Assembly: GCF_016757965.1 (NCBI RefSeq)
Contig: NZ_JAEKIW010000009.1
Span: 62,001-126,000, forward strand
Source of the DNA: Archaeoglobus neptunius
Lineage (GTDB): Archaea > Halobacteriota > Archaeoglobi > Archaeoglobales > Archaeoglobaceae
Length of the DNA stretch: 64,000 bases
Direction: 5' to 3'
The notes beneath the pieces were generated by a model. The model ran no database searches. It saw nothing but the letters and a program-made list of their open reading frames with translations, and was not told the DNA's origin. This document shows positions 58,050-63,167 of this stretch, piece by piece. Position 1 is the stretch's first letter, and each line of letters starts with the position of its first letter. The position numbers and the translations under genes were made by a program.

Positions 58050-59035
58050 ACCTCGACATCCACAACAACGTGATAAACTCCGGGAGAATAGTTCTTAACC
58101 TTTTTAAAGTTTAGAATTCTGCATCTCCTGCCGGCTCTGCTGCATGCCTTCTCGACTCTCCTAATCGGCCTCTCGATTACGGCTTCCGGGGTGGATTCGT
58201 GGTAGTGAATGACTCCCTTCCCATCTATTGCCCTTACCGCAGCCGGCAGGAAGTCCTGGCAGTAGATATGCCCCATCACAACCCTGTCGGCGACCTTTTC
58301 TGGAGTGACGAACATCGAATCACCGAGTATCGGAATTACATTCCTCACGTTATTCAGCCCGATATTCTCGATCAGATATCTGTATGAATCGGGATTTATT
58401 TCAATTGAGTATATCCTCTCAGCTCTGGAGTGGATGGCAATTGGTATTGAAAAGTATCCTATCCCTGCAAACATGTCTACCACGATTTCACCTTCATCGA
58501 CCATTTTTGCGACCCTAATCCTCTCTGCCTGGTTCCCAAGGCTGAACATCACCTTGCTGACATCAAGTTTGAAAACGCAACCGTTCTCTCTGTGCAGGGT
58601 CTCGCTTCCATTACCGGCTATTAGCTCGACCCTTGGTTTTCTCAGCATTCCAACTCTGCCGTAATCGCACCATACTGCCTTGCATCTTGGGTTTAGCTTC
58701 AAAAGTGCCTCACCTATTGTTCTGGAATATTTTCTCGCCTCCTCCTTCAGCTTGACCATCAAAATGTCTCCCAGAATCTTGTAGTTACTTGGGATGAACT
58801 CTTCCGGCACGATGCCTTTAAGTTCAGACTTCAGATCCATCTTACTGCTGAAAACGGGGTTAACCTGCTCGACAATTTCGTAATCTGAAAAAAGGTCTTC
58901 TGACCCGTCTATAATCGGGATTTCAACAAAGTCTCCAGCAGCAAGGATTCTTCTTCTCCTGTCCTTCACACCTTTTTTTTCAGCCAGCTTTCTTACCTCT
59001 TCCGCCCTCTCCTTTGGAACCCTCACGGCCTTCAT
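58043..59035 (-). CDS. tRNA wybutosine-pathway enzyme, Taw2-like (Trm5 family)
   Basis: SAM-binding protein of the Trm5/Taw2 family, 330 residues: an N-terminal domain, [27 protein letters not shown] near residue 155, the SAM motif [16 protein letters not shown] near 190, and [15 protein letters not shown] ... GVIHYHEST in place of the NLP/NPPY motif of Trm5 methylases. That change matches Taw2, which transfers the aminocarboxypropyl group of SAM onto 4-demethylwyosine at position 37 of tRNA-Phe. Trm5-type methylation is the alternative. It overlaps hemB at its 3' end and NMD3 by four bases at its start. Confidence 0.8.
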
Positions 59036-60018
59036 AGGTCTTTGAGAAATGCGTAAAATCTCCCCTTTTTCTCAAAAACCCTAACTTCGGATCCTATTTC
59101 TGCACCGTAAGGTCTTTCTGTTGTGATAACGTCTCCATCACTGCAAACTATTTCTGCAACACTCTCATCCACGTTCACGACCACGCCCTCTTTCATATCC
59201 TCTTTTCTTGCTGTAACTCTGTGTTTGTCCAGGTTTATGGTTTTTCCGGTGATTATATCAATAGCTTTCCCACTCTGAACGTTTTTGACGACACCAAATT
59301 TTCCATTTAGCTCTACAACATCTCCTTCTCTGTACTCCGGGATTTTTACAGAGTATGTGAATCTGTATACATCTCTGCCGTCAATTTTTGTATGGAGTTT
59401 CTTGCTTTCAGTTATTTCTCCGCCAAACCTGCTTTTGATGAGTTTTGCAATCTTCATCCCGATTTTTCTGCTTCCCAGATATACATTCAGTCCCTCCCTC
59501 TTCCGCTCAATTTTAGAAATGAAGGCCTTTTCATCACCTTTGCTCTTTCTGATCACGTTTTCAACAACTTCCATCGCACCACTGATTTCATCTTCACTGA
59601 GTTCTCTGTTATTCGCCCTGACCTGAACAATGGACTCGTAGTATCCACCGCTTTCTCTACTGCATTTTGGACAGCTCAGCTTTTTAATACTGTATTTTAA
59701 TGGAGCAGAGACGGAAACGAACTCTCCATTTACGTAACCTGAGAATACAATCATCTTTGATTTTACATCTATCAAAACGTCTTTAACATCAAACTCATCA
59801 GAAATGAGGGTGTTTTTAAAGACCATCTCTTCTACAGCCCCTTCAAGACTTCTCGATGTCCATCTTGCTCCCTGCTTAACCGCTCCGCACGTGCTGCACA
59901 CCTGTATCTCAAAATTTCTAACTCTTGCCAGCTCAACTTTCTCAACCATGCATTTCCCACAGAGCGTTCCTCGCTCGATTTCCTTTCCACAGACGATGCA
60001 CTTCACAATATAATTCAT
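59032..60018 (-). CDS. NMD3-family ribosome biogenesis protein
   Basis: A 328-residue archaeal relative of the eukaryotic 60S export adapter NMD3. N-terminal Cys pairs (CIVCGKEI, CGKC, CSTCGAV, CPKC) form zinc ribbons, followed by an NMD3-type core with FGGEITESKKLHTKIDGRDVYRFTYSVKIPEY near residue 200 and C-terminal beta domains. Archaea lack nuclear export, so a role in large-subunit assembly or translation is likely. It leads the operon with the Taw2-like gene; both act on the translation apparatus. Confidence 0.9.
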   Translation of the reverse strand: MNYIVKCIVCGKEIERGTLCGKCMVEKVELARVRNFEIQVCSTCGAVKQGARWTSRSLEGAVEEMVFKNTLISDEFDVKDVLIDVKSKMIVFSGYVNGEFVSVSAPLKYSIKKLSCPKCSRESGGYYESIVQVRANNRELSEDEISGAMEVVENVIRKSKGDEKAFISKIERKREGLNVYLGSRKIGMKIAKLIKSRFGGEITESKKLHTKIDGRDVYRFTYSVKIPEYREGDVVELNGKFGVVKNVQSGKAIDIITGKTINLDKHRVTARKEDMKEGVVVNVDESVAEIVCSDGDVITTERPYGAEIGSEVRVFEKKGRFYAFLKDL

Positions 60019-60046
60019 TGATACGCACCTCTTAAAAACTGACCGA

Positions 60047-60058
60047 AATATTTATATT
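60047..60058. promoter_or_regulatory. Shared TATA region between NMD3 and hsp20
   Basis: AATATTTATATT is A/T rich and close to symmetric. It lies about 29-40 bases before the NMD3 ATG (minus) and about 20 bases before the heat-shock palindrome (plus), so it could fire both ways. Confidence 0.45.
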
Positions 60059-60066
60059 CTTTTAAC

Positions 60067-60081
60067 CTAACAATAGGTTAG
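60067..60081. promoter_or_regulatory. Heat-shock operator palindrome CTAAC-N5-GTTAG
   Basis: CTAAC AATAG GTTAG, which matches the palindrome I recall for the A. fulgidus heat-shock regulator HSR1. It lies below the hsp20 TATA box around the likely transcription start. Two further GTTAG half-sites follow at 60091-60095 and 60105-60109, each exactly 14 bases after the last. Confidence 0.75.
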
Positions 60082-60148
60082 GTATAGTATGTTAGTGAGG
60101 GATTGTTAGGGAGTAGTGGGAAAGAAGTTTGTTGGGAGGTGATGAAAA

Positions 60149-60645: not shown

Positions 60646-61623
60646 ATGGATGTGAACCTTTTGAATCCAGAGGAGATTGGCAGTGTGAAATCCGAGAGCC
60701 TGATGCTCCTAGTTCCGGAAGCCATTTACAATCAGTTCAGGGAAAATTTCAATGAAATCAAATCTGAGAACGTTTTTGGGGCTGTATTTCCGGGAGTAAT
60801 ATTCAATGGGAGAAGATACGATGATAAGATAATTGCAGTGGAGTTTGATTTTGAGGTTAAGGTTTATAGGGGGGTTGTTGACAGGGTTGAGGGCAAAACG
60901 CTGATGATCTTCGGTGATGCACTGCATGCTGACATTGAAAGTCTGATTGAGAAAATTTACTTTAAACTCGGAAACAGGATTAAATACATAGGCGGTGGAG
61001 CAGGGTCGATGAGAAGTCGGATCAAATGCCTTTTCGATAGAGCAGGATTTTTTTCCGAAAGTATACTTCTTGCATTTCTTCCGCATGATTTTAATATAGC
61101 CGTAAGACATGGCTGGAGAGAACTTGACCAGAGCTTTATTTCAACAGAAGTGGATGGCAGGAGGATTATTGAACTTGACTGGAAGCCCGCTTTCGAAGTT
61201 TATAGAGAGGCTCTTGAGCTTAGTGGGGTGCAGATCAGCAGAAAGAACTTCTTTGAAGTTGCACTTGCTTTCCCTTTTGGACTGTCCAAGGTGAAAGGGG
61301 AGGACATAATCAGAGACCCAATCGGATTGGATGGGGACAGTATAATTTGCGCCGGAAACGTTCCGCAGAACTGCATTCTGAAACTCATGCACGGCGATAA
61401 AGAGGATCTTATCAAAGCTACGAGAGATTGCCTGGAATCGGTGGAAAACGCTGTCCTGTCTTTTGACTGCATATCGAGAGCGATATTTCTCGGAGAGGAT
61501 CTGGACAGGGAGTTGCGGTACCTTAAGGACACGTTCGGTGCGCTGACAATAGGTGAGATCGGATGTGATGATGGTTTTCTGGAGTTTCATAACAAAACTG
61601 TGGTCGTGGGAGGATTGGGATGA
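60646..61623 (+). CDS. FIST-domain sensory protein
   Basis: A 325-residue protein with the FIST layout: an N-terminal domain with LLVPEAIYNQFRE and GAVFPGVIFNGRRYDDKIIAVEF, GGGAGSMRSR near residue 117, LLAFLPHDFNIAVRHGW, and a C-terminal FIST_C part ending AISRAIFLGEDLDREL ... LGALTIGEIGCDD ... FHNKTVVVGGLG. FIST domains are thought to bind small ligands such as amino acids upstream of kinases. It overlaps the histidine kinase gene by four bases, so it is most likely its input partner. ATG 60646 follows GGAGG. Confidence 0.87.
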   Translation: MDVNLLNPEEIGSVKSESLMLLVPEAIYNQFRENFNEIKSENVFGAVFPGVIFNGRRYDDKIIAVEFDFEVKVYRGVVDRVEGKTLMIFGDALHADIESLIEKIYFKLGNRIKYIGGGAGSMRSRIKCLFDRAGFFSESILLAFLPHDFNIAVRHGWRELDQSFISTEVDGRRIIELDWKPAFEVYREALELSGVQISRKNFFEVALAFPFGLSKVKGEDIIRDPIGLDGDSIICAGNVPQNCILKLMHGDKEDLIKATRDCLESVENAVLSFDCISRAIFLGEDLDRELRYLKDTFGALTIGEIGCDDGFLEFHNKTVVVGGLG

Positions 61624-63167
61624 ACGACAAGGACCTCATCGCCACACTGTTTGAGCTGGAAAGTCTGATCCGTCCCGGAGACATTAGGAGTGTTTTGACG
61701 GAATTTGGAAAGGAGCTGATCAGAAGATTTGGCTTCAGATGGTTTAGGGCAGAGGTTCCAATACTGAATCTTGAGGTGAGAATACCGGAAAATGCCGAAT
61801 TCGAAGATTCGGTAGAGTTCAGCGGCTCTGTTTTAAGGCTCCATACGGGGGGCAGGATAGATGATTTAATCTTAAAGGCTCTTAGACCGCTTTTTGAAAG
61901 ACTCGACTATACCATAGCATACAGTATCTTCTATGACGTAATGTTGAACGTTCTTCAGTTTTCAGAAGACCTGATACTGCTGGTGGATGAAGAAGGTCGA
62001 ATCGTTGAGATGAACAGAAAGGCTAGAGAGATATTCGGTTTGAGGGAAAAGCTTCCTGAAGAGTGCAGGAGTGAGATCTGCGAATTCGGTGGTAGGACCT
62101 ACTCAATGGGGGGCATTAAAGTTGGAAAGCTCAAGGTTATTGTGGGGCGAGATATCACCCAAATAAAACGGCTGGAGGAAGCTGCCAGAGAGGGAGAGGA
62201 GAATTTCAGAAGACTTGCCGAGGCTATACCGATTGCCGTCGTTGTTTATGGCAAAGACGGATGGCTTTTTATGAACAAAGCTGTCGAGGAGCTGACGGGA
62301 TATACAAGAGAAGACCTGATATCCAGACAGTTCCGGGAAATCGTTCCCGAAAACGAAAGGGAAAAACTCGAGAAAGCAATTGAGGCATGGGTGGAGGGTG
62401 AGGATGTTGGTCCTTACAGGCTCACCGTCAGGAGGAAGGATGGAAGAGAAAGGAGGGTTATCGTAAGAGGGGCGAGCATAAAGTGGAAGGGTAAGAAAGC
62501 GGCAATTGTAACCTTTACAGATGTAACCGAAATTGAGGAGGATAGAGAGAGGTTAAAGGAGCTTTCCGAGATGCTTTCCCTGATTAACAGAATTCTGAGA
62601 CATGATGTTTTAAATGCGTTGACCTCTGCTCTGGCGTATCTTGAGTTCTACGAGGATATGAAGGATGAATCCATGTTGAAAAAGGTAAGAAACTCCATTG
62701 AACGAAGTGTAGCTATTATAAAAGACATGAGAGCGTTTGAGGAACTGGTAAAAAAGGGTGAGCTGAAGCTGGTAGATGTCAGAAAGGTTGTGGAGGAGGT
62801 GGCAAGAAAATTTGATCTCGACATCAGAATCAGAGGGTCGGGAAGGGCCTTTGCAGACGATGGGCTGAGGGAAGTTTTTGAGAATATACTGCAAAATGCC
62901 GCCCAGCACAGCGGCAGTGATCGGGTGGATGTTACCATAAAAGAGTTCTCCGATACCTGTGAGATCAGAATTGCGGATTACGGTAAGGGAATTCCGAATG
63001 CGATCAAAGACGAAATTTTCAAAGAGGGATTCAAGTTCGGAGATACCTCAAGAACCGGTCTTGGTCTGCACTTTGTGAAGAAACTTGTTGAAAGGTACAA
63101 CGGTGAGGTTTGGGTTGAAGATAACATTCCGAAAGGTGCGGTTTTTGTCATTAGACTGAGAAAATAG
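61620..63167 (+). CDS. PAS-domain histidine kinase
   Basis: A 515-residue cytoplasmic sensor kinase: an N-terminal helical region, PAS 1 (about 115-180, LVDEEGRIVEMNRKAREIFG), PAS 2 (about 200-305, VVYGKDGWLFMNKAVEELTGYTREDL), a DHp helix with the phospho-accepting His in RHDVLNAL near 327, and an HATPase domain with N-box ENILQNAAQH near 422, ADYGKGIP near 450 and GLGLHFVKK near 480. No membrane helix. No response regulator is in view. Coupled to the FIST gene; a TAXI-type binding protein follows downstream. Confidence 0.92.
   Translation: MNDKDLIATLFELESLIRPGDIRSVLTEFGKELIRRFGFRWFRAEVPILNLEVRIPENAEFEDSVEFSGSVLRLHTGGRIDDLILKALRPLFERLDYTIAYSIFYDVMLNVLQFSEDLILLVDEEGRIVEMNRKAREIFGLREKLPEECRSEICEFGGRTYSMGGIKVGKLKVIVGRDITQIKRLEEAAREGEENFRRLAEAIPIAVVVYGKDGWLFMNKAVEELTGYTREDLISRQFREIVPENEREKLEKAIEAWVEGEDVGPYRLTVRRKDGRERRVIVRGASIKWKGKKAAIVTFTDVTEIEEDRERLKELSEMLSLINRILRHDVLNALTSALAYLEFYEDMKDESMLKKVRNSIERSVAIIKDMRAFEELVKKGELKLVDVRKVVEEVARKFDLDIRIRGSGRAFADDGLREVFENILQNAAQHSGSDRVDVTIKEFSDTCEIRIADYGKGIPNAIKDEIFKEGFKFGDTSRTGLGLHFVKKLVERYNGEVWVEDNIPKGAVFVIRLRK

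Follow-up and report, generated by a model that had tools for sequence, protein, structure and literature searches.

The leader of the small heat-shock gene hsp20 in Archaeoglobus neptunius carries GTTAG three times at 14-base intervals, the first copy being the right half of a palindrome, which raises the question of how many molecules of its regulator the operator holds and how they are packed. Very few regulators of the archaeal heat-shock response have been described, and how these recognize DNA outside a single palindrome is little defined. A conserved 14-bp array would turn into a direct, testable statement on the number of HSR1 dimers per promoter and on their packing, and it bears on possible differences in the heat response of hsp20, cdc48, and the regulator's own gene.

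The palindrome itself has been published, as the HSR1 motif CTAAC-N5-GTTAG of Archaeoglobus fulgidus, described upstream of the regulator gene (PMC9133787). The A. fulgidus operator shares its palindrome, gene class (hsp20), and regulator with the locus studied here, but in the accessible text of that paper it is described as the palindrome alone, whereas the present operator has further half-sites at +14 and +28. The same text describes Phr of Pyrococcus furiosus, an ArsR-type heat-shock repressor whose site lies over the transcription start and whose targets are hsp20 and its own gene. In all these respects the Phr operator is like that of HSR1, although its letters differ (TTTA / TGGTAA / AAAA within 29 bp; PMC9133787). 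The window, i.e. the whole stretch of 64,000 nucleotides that was analyzed, belongs to a genome of 2,115,826 bases in 32 contigs.

The hsp20 promoter and its half-sites across the Archaeoglobaceae

The initial annotation had placed the palindrome at 60067-60081 and GTTAG at 60077, 60091, and 60105, and both letters and positions were found as claimed (Table 1). The palindrome lies just 3' of the TATA box of the heat-shock gene, and the BRE/TATA element, the palindrome, and the two further GTTAG copies are all located between hsp20 and the divergent nmd3. The window thus holds one complete unit and two right half-sites, rather than two complete units 14 bp apart, and the last half-site is 24 bases from the Shine-Dalgarno stretch. 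Transcription is expected to start near 60080, because the distance between TATA box and palindrome is invariant across aligned hsp20 promoters.

Table 1. Features of the hsp20 promoter region (window positions; offset 0 is the first G of the palindrome's right half-site)
Feature	Position	Strand	Basis
BRE/TATA element of the hsp20 promoter, CCGAAATATTTATATT	60043..60058	+	sequence; conserved in 48 aligned promoters
Extended palindrome ACCTAAC-N5-GTTAGGT	60065-60083		
Unit 1, complete HSR1-type palindrome CTAAC-AATAG-GTTAG	60067..60081	+	sequence; family conservation; published motif (PMC9133787, accessible text)
Unit 1, left half-site CTAAC	60067-60071	+	sequence
Unit 1, right half-site GTTAG	60077-60081	+	sequence
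Unit 1 as lattice unit TAAC-N5-GTTA	60068-60080	+	sequence
Unit 2, left-half (TAAC) position, empty (GTAT instead)	60082..60085	+	sequence
Unit 2, right half-site GTTAG (+14)	60091..60095	+	sequence; 30/48 promoters
Unit 3, left-half (TAAC) position, empty (TGAG instead)	60096..60099	+	sequence
Unit 3, right half-site GTTAG (+28)	60105..60109	+	sequence; 15/48 promoters
Shine-Dalgarno stretch GGGAGGTGAT	60134..60143	+	sequence
hsp20, small heat-shock protein, 138 aa	60149..60565	+	Pfam HSP20 PF00011, E 3.5e-24; PDB small heat-shock proteins
Divergent NMD3-family gene, 328 aa; regulation by the operator not known	59032..60018	-	Pfam NMD3 PF04981, E 1e-48

Within 1 mismatch, CTAAC-N5-GTTAG occurs once in the window, where 1.18 occurrences are expected by shuffling; by itself, the count of the palindrome in 64 kb is therefore at chance level and uninformative. 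Three GTTAG copies at 14-base spacing with at most 2 mismatches also gave a single match in the window, against 0.08 expected, and GTTAG as such is rarer there than expected (42 found, 84 expected). A genome scan for the palindrome, proposed as a check by the initial annotation, returned three exact places: hsp20, the gene of an HSR1-like regulator, and a gene for a DUF2178 membrane protein.

Conservation was followed through 55 genomes of the family, including one single-contig genome of 2,178,400 bases. An hsp20 match was obtained in 48 of these, giving 49 genes, all of whose upstream regions were examined; the palindrome is present with at least 9 of 10 letters in 48 of the 49 and with all 10 in 43. 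Leaving out the one gene lacking it (in G046), 48 promoters from 13 genera could be aligned without gaps from TATA box to palindrome, with an A at -21 and a T at -16 from the palindrome start invariant in every one. Of these promoters, 30 have GTTA at +14 and 15 have it at +28, representing 9 and 6 of the 13 genera, respectively. Over offsets 1-59, its only other occurrences are at +4 (5 promoters), +5 (1), and +33 (1), which leaves one GTTA in total for offsets 6 to 45 apart from +14 and +28. The exact spacing of the extra half-sites is thus a conserved feature. Their absence from sister species, which had been named as evidence against the proposal, is contradicted by the genus of the window itself, where all 8 hsp20 genes (7 genomes) have both +14 and +28; a further member of this genus, G005 (79% complete), gave no hsp20 match. 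The hsp20 of G001 likewise combines the palindrome with both phased half-sites. A second hsp20 copy in G004 (C47:12718-13143) has its own palindrome and both phased half-sites and could stem from a second strain in the assembly.

The low complexity of the G- and T-rich leader and the chance-level count of the palindrome in the window would both suit a reading in which the extra half-sites are a functionless leftover of tandem duplication or mere coincidence. Against this, the same spacing recurs in 9 genera although the spacers between half-sites are only about half identical (53% and 52% pairwise identity among the 30 promoters with +14). In 500 dinucleotide shuffles of the leaders, GTTA was found on average 0.43 times at +14 (maximum 3) and 0.47 times at +28 (maximum 4), and no offset ever reached a count above 6; in the real leaders, no offsets other than +14 and +28 are enriched. 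Chance or duplication was rejected on this conserved spacing across the 9 genera, and we regard it as scarcely credible.

Alternatively, the leader half-sites might act in the mRNA, as an extended Shine-Dalgarno sequence or a protein-binding repeat, rather than as DNA sites. They are situated in the transcribed leader, and the Shine-Dalgarno core directly adjoins the +14 GTTA in 15 of 30 promoters and the +28 GTTA in 12 of 15. The sequence TAAGGAGGTGAT nearly complements the end of the 16S rRNA, which counts in favor of the same reading. However, the other 15 of the 30 +14 sites (genera g1, g2, g9, and g13), including those of the whole window genus, are away from the Shine-Dalgarno core, for which reason a Shine-Dalgarno extension was rejected as sole cause. 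Moreover, the sites keep a fixed distance to a palindrome in the DNA, the left half of which should lie outside the transcript. Some of the half-site letters could be due to translation, but as an account of the phased sites an action in mRNA appears very improbable.

Of the 18 hsp20 promoters without GTTA at +14, 7 belong to genus g13 and have short leaders, whereas the remaining 11 show either a variant, in most cases GTAAA, or no recognizable site. The seven short-leader loci (L092, L094, L098, L099, L101, L103, and L104, from G054, G045, G047, G053, G049, G051, and G052, respectively), which lack phased half-sites and whose palindrome nearly abuts the Shine-Dalgarno sequence, offer a natural loss for comparison. 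Most hsp20 promoters also lack the left halves of the second and third units; TAAC occurs at the unit 3 left-half offset in 3 of 48.

The regulator HSR1 and its own promoter

The genome of the window encodes a 227-aa ArsR-type regulator (G000:C4:81118-81798) with the CDC48 gene directly downstream. Among solved structures, Phr (2p4w) is closest to it in sequence, and because of this and of the gene order regulator-CDC48 the protein is taken as the HSR1 orthologue. The palindrome recurs in the promoter of this gene, ending 13 bp before the start codon, so that one genome has a regulator with the palindrome in its own promoter and cdc48 adjacent. The published motif (PMC9133787, accessible text), the orthologue, and the site before its gene together bear out the initial annotation in naming the palindrome an HSR1-type operator. 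Records of Archaeoglobus, Geoglobus, and Ferroglobus are among the named relatives in which the regulator was found.

An HSR1 match was present in 51 genomes. The hsr1 promoters of 50 of these were taken, leaving out G031 with its partial HSR1, and offsets were counted in 48 of them, excluding G045 (contig end) and G029 (8 of 10 letters). In 36 of the 48, TAAC is found at +5 of the right half-site, giving the arrangement AAC-n5-GTT-n3-AAC. The left half of unit 2 is therefore present in most hsr1 promoters, whereas it is absent from most hsp20 promoters.

This arrangement is the reverse complement of a motif known from another regulator, SurR of the Thermococcales, which has two winged helix-turn-helix domains per chain and whose long motif is given as GTTn3AACn5GTT (PMC8595942 and PMC12162507, accessible text). 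In the accessible parts of two further papers, SurR is placed in arCOG01684 (PMC9426492), and the group of Phr and HSR1 is given as the same arCOG01684 (PMC5852551). From GTT to GTT, the SurR long motif measures 3+3+3+5 = 14 bases, matching the spacing before hsp20. Because AAC-n5-GTT-n3-AAC puts half-sites of the same direction 14 bases apart, hsp20 and hsr1 promoters appear to sample the same 14-bp repeat, each in its own way. The long motif as such is found in the 36 hsr1 promoters but not in the window, which has AACn5GTT and a GTT at +14 but lacks the AAC that should follow the first GTT after three bases. SurR also differs in responding to sulfur through a CxxC switch and in that its core is given as GTTn3AAC (PMC12401011, accessible text). 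No description of SurR arrays beyond three half-sites was found in the accessible parts of the open-licence literature.

A structure model (m19477c865df4) was computed with 40 sequences for the HSR1 of Archaeoglobus sp. UBA230, which is 86% identical to the protein of the window genome (mean pLDDT 88.3, pTM 0.72). It predicts a winged helix at either terminus (the C-terminal one at residues about 166-222) with a long helix between them, and thus the domain order of the SurR/HSR1 group, with an ArsR-like N-terminal domain. Among solved structures, SurR alone aligns to the model over nearly its full length (2quf, Z 15.7, 207 residues; 2qlz, Z 14.3, 205 residues). The good match of Phr is confined to the N-terminal 96 residues (VIA-align 2), and Foldseek superposes Phr poorly (rmsd about 20).

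The second winged helix of the model gives rise to the main rival explanation, in which a single HSR1 dimer has four reading heads, the N-terminal winged helices sitting on the palindrome and a C-terminal winged helix reading the half-site 14 bp off. SurR likewise has a second winged helix (PMC12162507, accessible text). Exactly one extra half-site is found both in hsr1 promoters and in the SurR long motif, whose three half-sites such a layout might suit. It nevertheless leaves the +28 site of 15 of 48 hsp20 promoters unexplained unless dimers also tile, and we consider it unlikely.

Four genomes (G018, G021, G022, and G032) have kept palindrome-type hsp20 sites and gave no HSR1 match at E 1e-12 to 1e-15; one of them, G022, is a single-contig genome. 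A looser search in these four returned short N- or C-terminal matches and nothing more, the best weak matches in G022 and G018 being other ArsR-type proteins with a tail that by eye looks membrane-bound. Near the weak match of G022 (L234), TAAC-N5-GTTA occurs between an ORF with a heavy-metal-binding domain and an enoyl-CoA-hydratase-like ORF (both named by eye), and no HSR1 was found at this locus. Either the regulator was lost recently in the four genomes, or another protein acts at their hsp20 operators.

Complete 14-bp units beside HSR1-like genes of other families

If hsp20 and hsr1 promoters sample one repeat, the complete repeat is predicted to exist somewhere. Twenty promoters of HSR1-like genes from other families were fetched without regard to promoter pattern, and two of them (L271 and L274) have two complete TAAC-N5-GTTA units 14 bp apart; L267, from the same order, has a weak first unit and a complete second one. 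In 10 of the 20, no exact TAAC-N5-GTTA was found near the gene, 5 of these being haloarchaeal, judged by composition.

The double unit TAAC-N5-GTTA-G-TAAC-N5-GTTA was found at 18 places in 17 of 392 genomes of the phylum, against 0 for the reversed-pattern control. In all 15 of these 17 genomes in which the gene could be located independently, the double unit lies less than 60 bp upstream of an HSR1-like match, and in a sixteenth (G365) an HSR1-like gene was read at the locus. When 17 loci, preselected by the 14-bp pattern, were compared for array length with one mismatch allowed per unit, G365 was found to have five consecutive units and G214 four. HSR1-like regulator genes outside the family thus carry from 2 to 5 complete units, exactly 14 bp apart. 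The pattern-blind checks on this preselected set are the 20 promoters above and a search with a free gap of 0 to 20 bases between units. The latter gave 65 places in 45 of the 392 genomes (counted by hand), 21 of them (18 genomes) with a period of 14, 30 (24 genomes) with a period of 18, and 14 with other periods; its reversed control gave 32 per strand, mostly in three genomes. Period 14 thus forms a peak, tied to HSR1-like genes, and period 18 forms another. In another family, the promoters of a further heat-shock gene, cdc48, in G097 and G123 have the palindrome and GTTA at +14, as in the window.

The complete arrays bear on two of the alternatives above. That the 14-bp unit occurs before hsr1 of other families as a full palindrome speaks against an action of the half-sites in mRNA, and arrays of four and five complete units are unexplained by a dimer with four reading heads unless such dimers also tile.

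The period-18 arrays of the same dyad include one of five units (L319, 1489-1573) and others at L320 (1511), L321 (1513), L322 (1487), and L323 (1461). Five of the six that were examined adjoin an EFR1-family/flavodoxin-like gene, named by eye from translations, and another regulator probably uses the dyad there. Because it forms such arrays before another gene, the letters of the half-sites are insufficient to identify HSR1.

Proposed packing of dimers on a 14-bp operator repeat

Because HSR1-like genes elsewhere carry complete units 14 bp apart, this distance is best taken as the step from one regulator dimer to the next. On this comparison of sequences, the operator in the window reads as a complete unit 1 with just the right halves of the two units after it, that is, as a partly filled 14-bp tandem-dimer array that is predicted to work like one. 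We put at roughly 0.7 the probability that the hsp20 leader is a 14-bp-repeat operator of the ArsR-type repressor HSR1, with one predicted dimer per unit. Counting against this reading are the four genomes that have an hsp20 operator but gave no HSR1 match, the hsp20 promoters lacking GTTA at +14, the empty left halves of the second and third units, and the period-18 arrays of the same dyad.

For this array, we infer occupancy by dimers, cooperativity, repression, and release by heat along the following lines. The repeat would be TAAC-N5-GTTA plus one base, each 14-bp unit forming the site of one HSR1 dimer. A first dimer would bind the complete unit 1, overlapping the expected transcription start, and further dimers would dock downstream every 14 bp, at the second and third units, which lie within the transcribed leader, each anchored by a single specific half-site and by its contact to the preceding dimer. 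Neighboring dimers would be rotated by ~120 degrees, because 14 bp corresponds to 1.33 helical turns. The array would block RNA polymerase at the start site and over the first ~30 transcribed bases until heat releases HSR1. The initial annotation had proposed that the phasing lets more regulators line up along the leader and gives graded repression. The complete tandem units of other families support more dimers in outline, but an alignment on one face of the helix was rejected, since 14 bp does not correspond to an integral number of turns, and a cooperative, switch-like response is as plausible as a graded one.

More tentatively, and with somewhat less than even odds, AAC-n5-GTT-n3 with its period of 14 bp may be a general operator grammar of the HSR1/SurR group, in which dimers lie side by side in a short DNA spiral and each promoter sets the length and strength of its array by the half-sites filled, from one to five units. 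Such a spiral would have three dimers per four helical turns, and a single lattice would be sampled both by the SurR long motif and by the heat-shock operators, offering an explanation for the odd three-part motif of SurR. The 14-bp array would also allow the heat-shock regulons of uncultured archaea to be searched for with a sharper pattern. The HSR1 array, its 14-bp period, and its tie to the SurR long motif appear to be new, no description of them having been found in the accessible parts of the open-licence literature, in which no paper on AF1298 was found either.

Two minor observations concern neighboring or similar loci. DUF2178-like genes with the palindrome are present in the window genome (L002, 1501-1515) and in G001 (L235 and L228), the assignment resting on a domain scan for L002 and on likeness for both G001 genes. 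Their flanks differ from those of hsp20: GTTA and TAAC lie roughly symmetrically, about 12 bases to either side of the palindrome and off the 14-bp repeat. On the 3' side of hsp20, at 60646-63167 of the window, a gene for a FIST-domain sensor is followed by an overlapping PAS/histidine-kinase gene.
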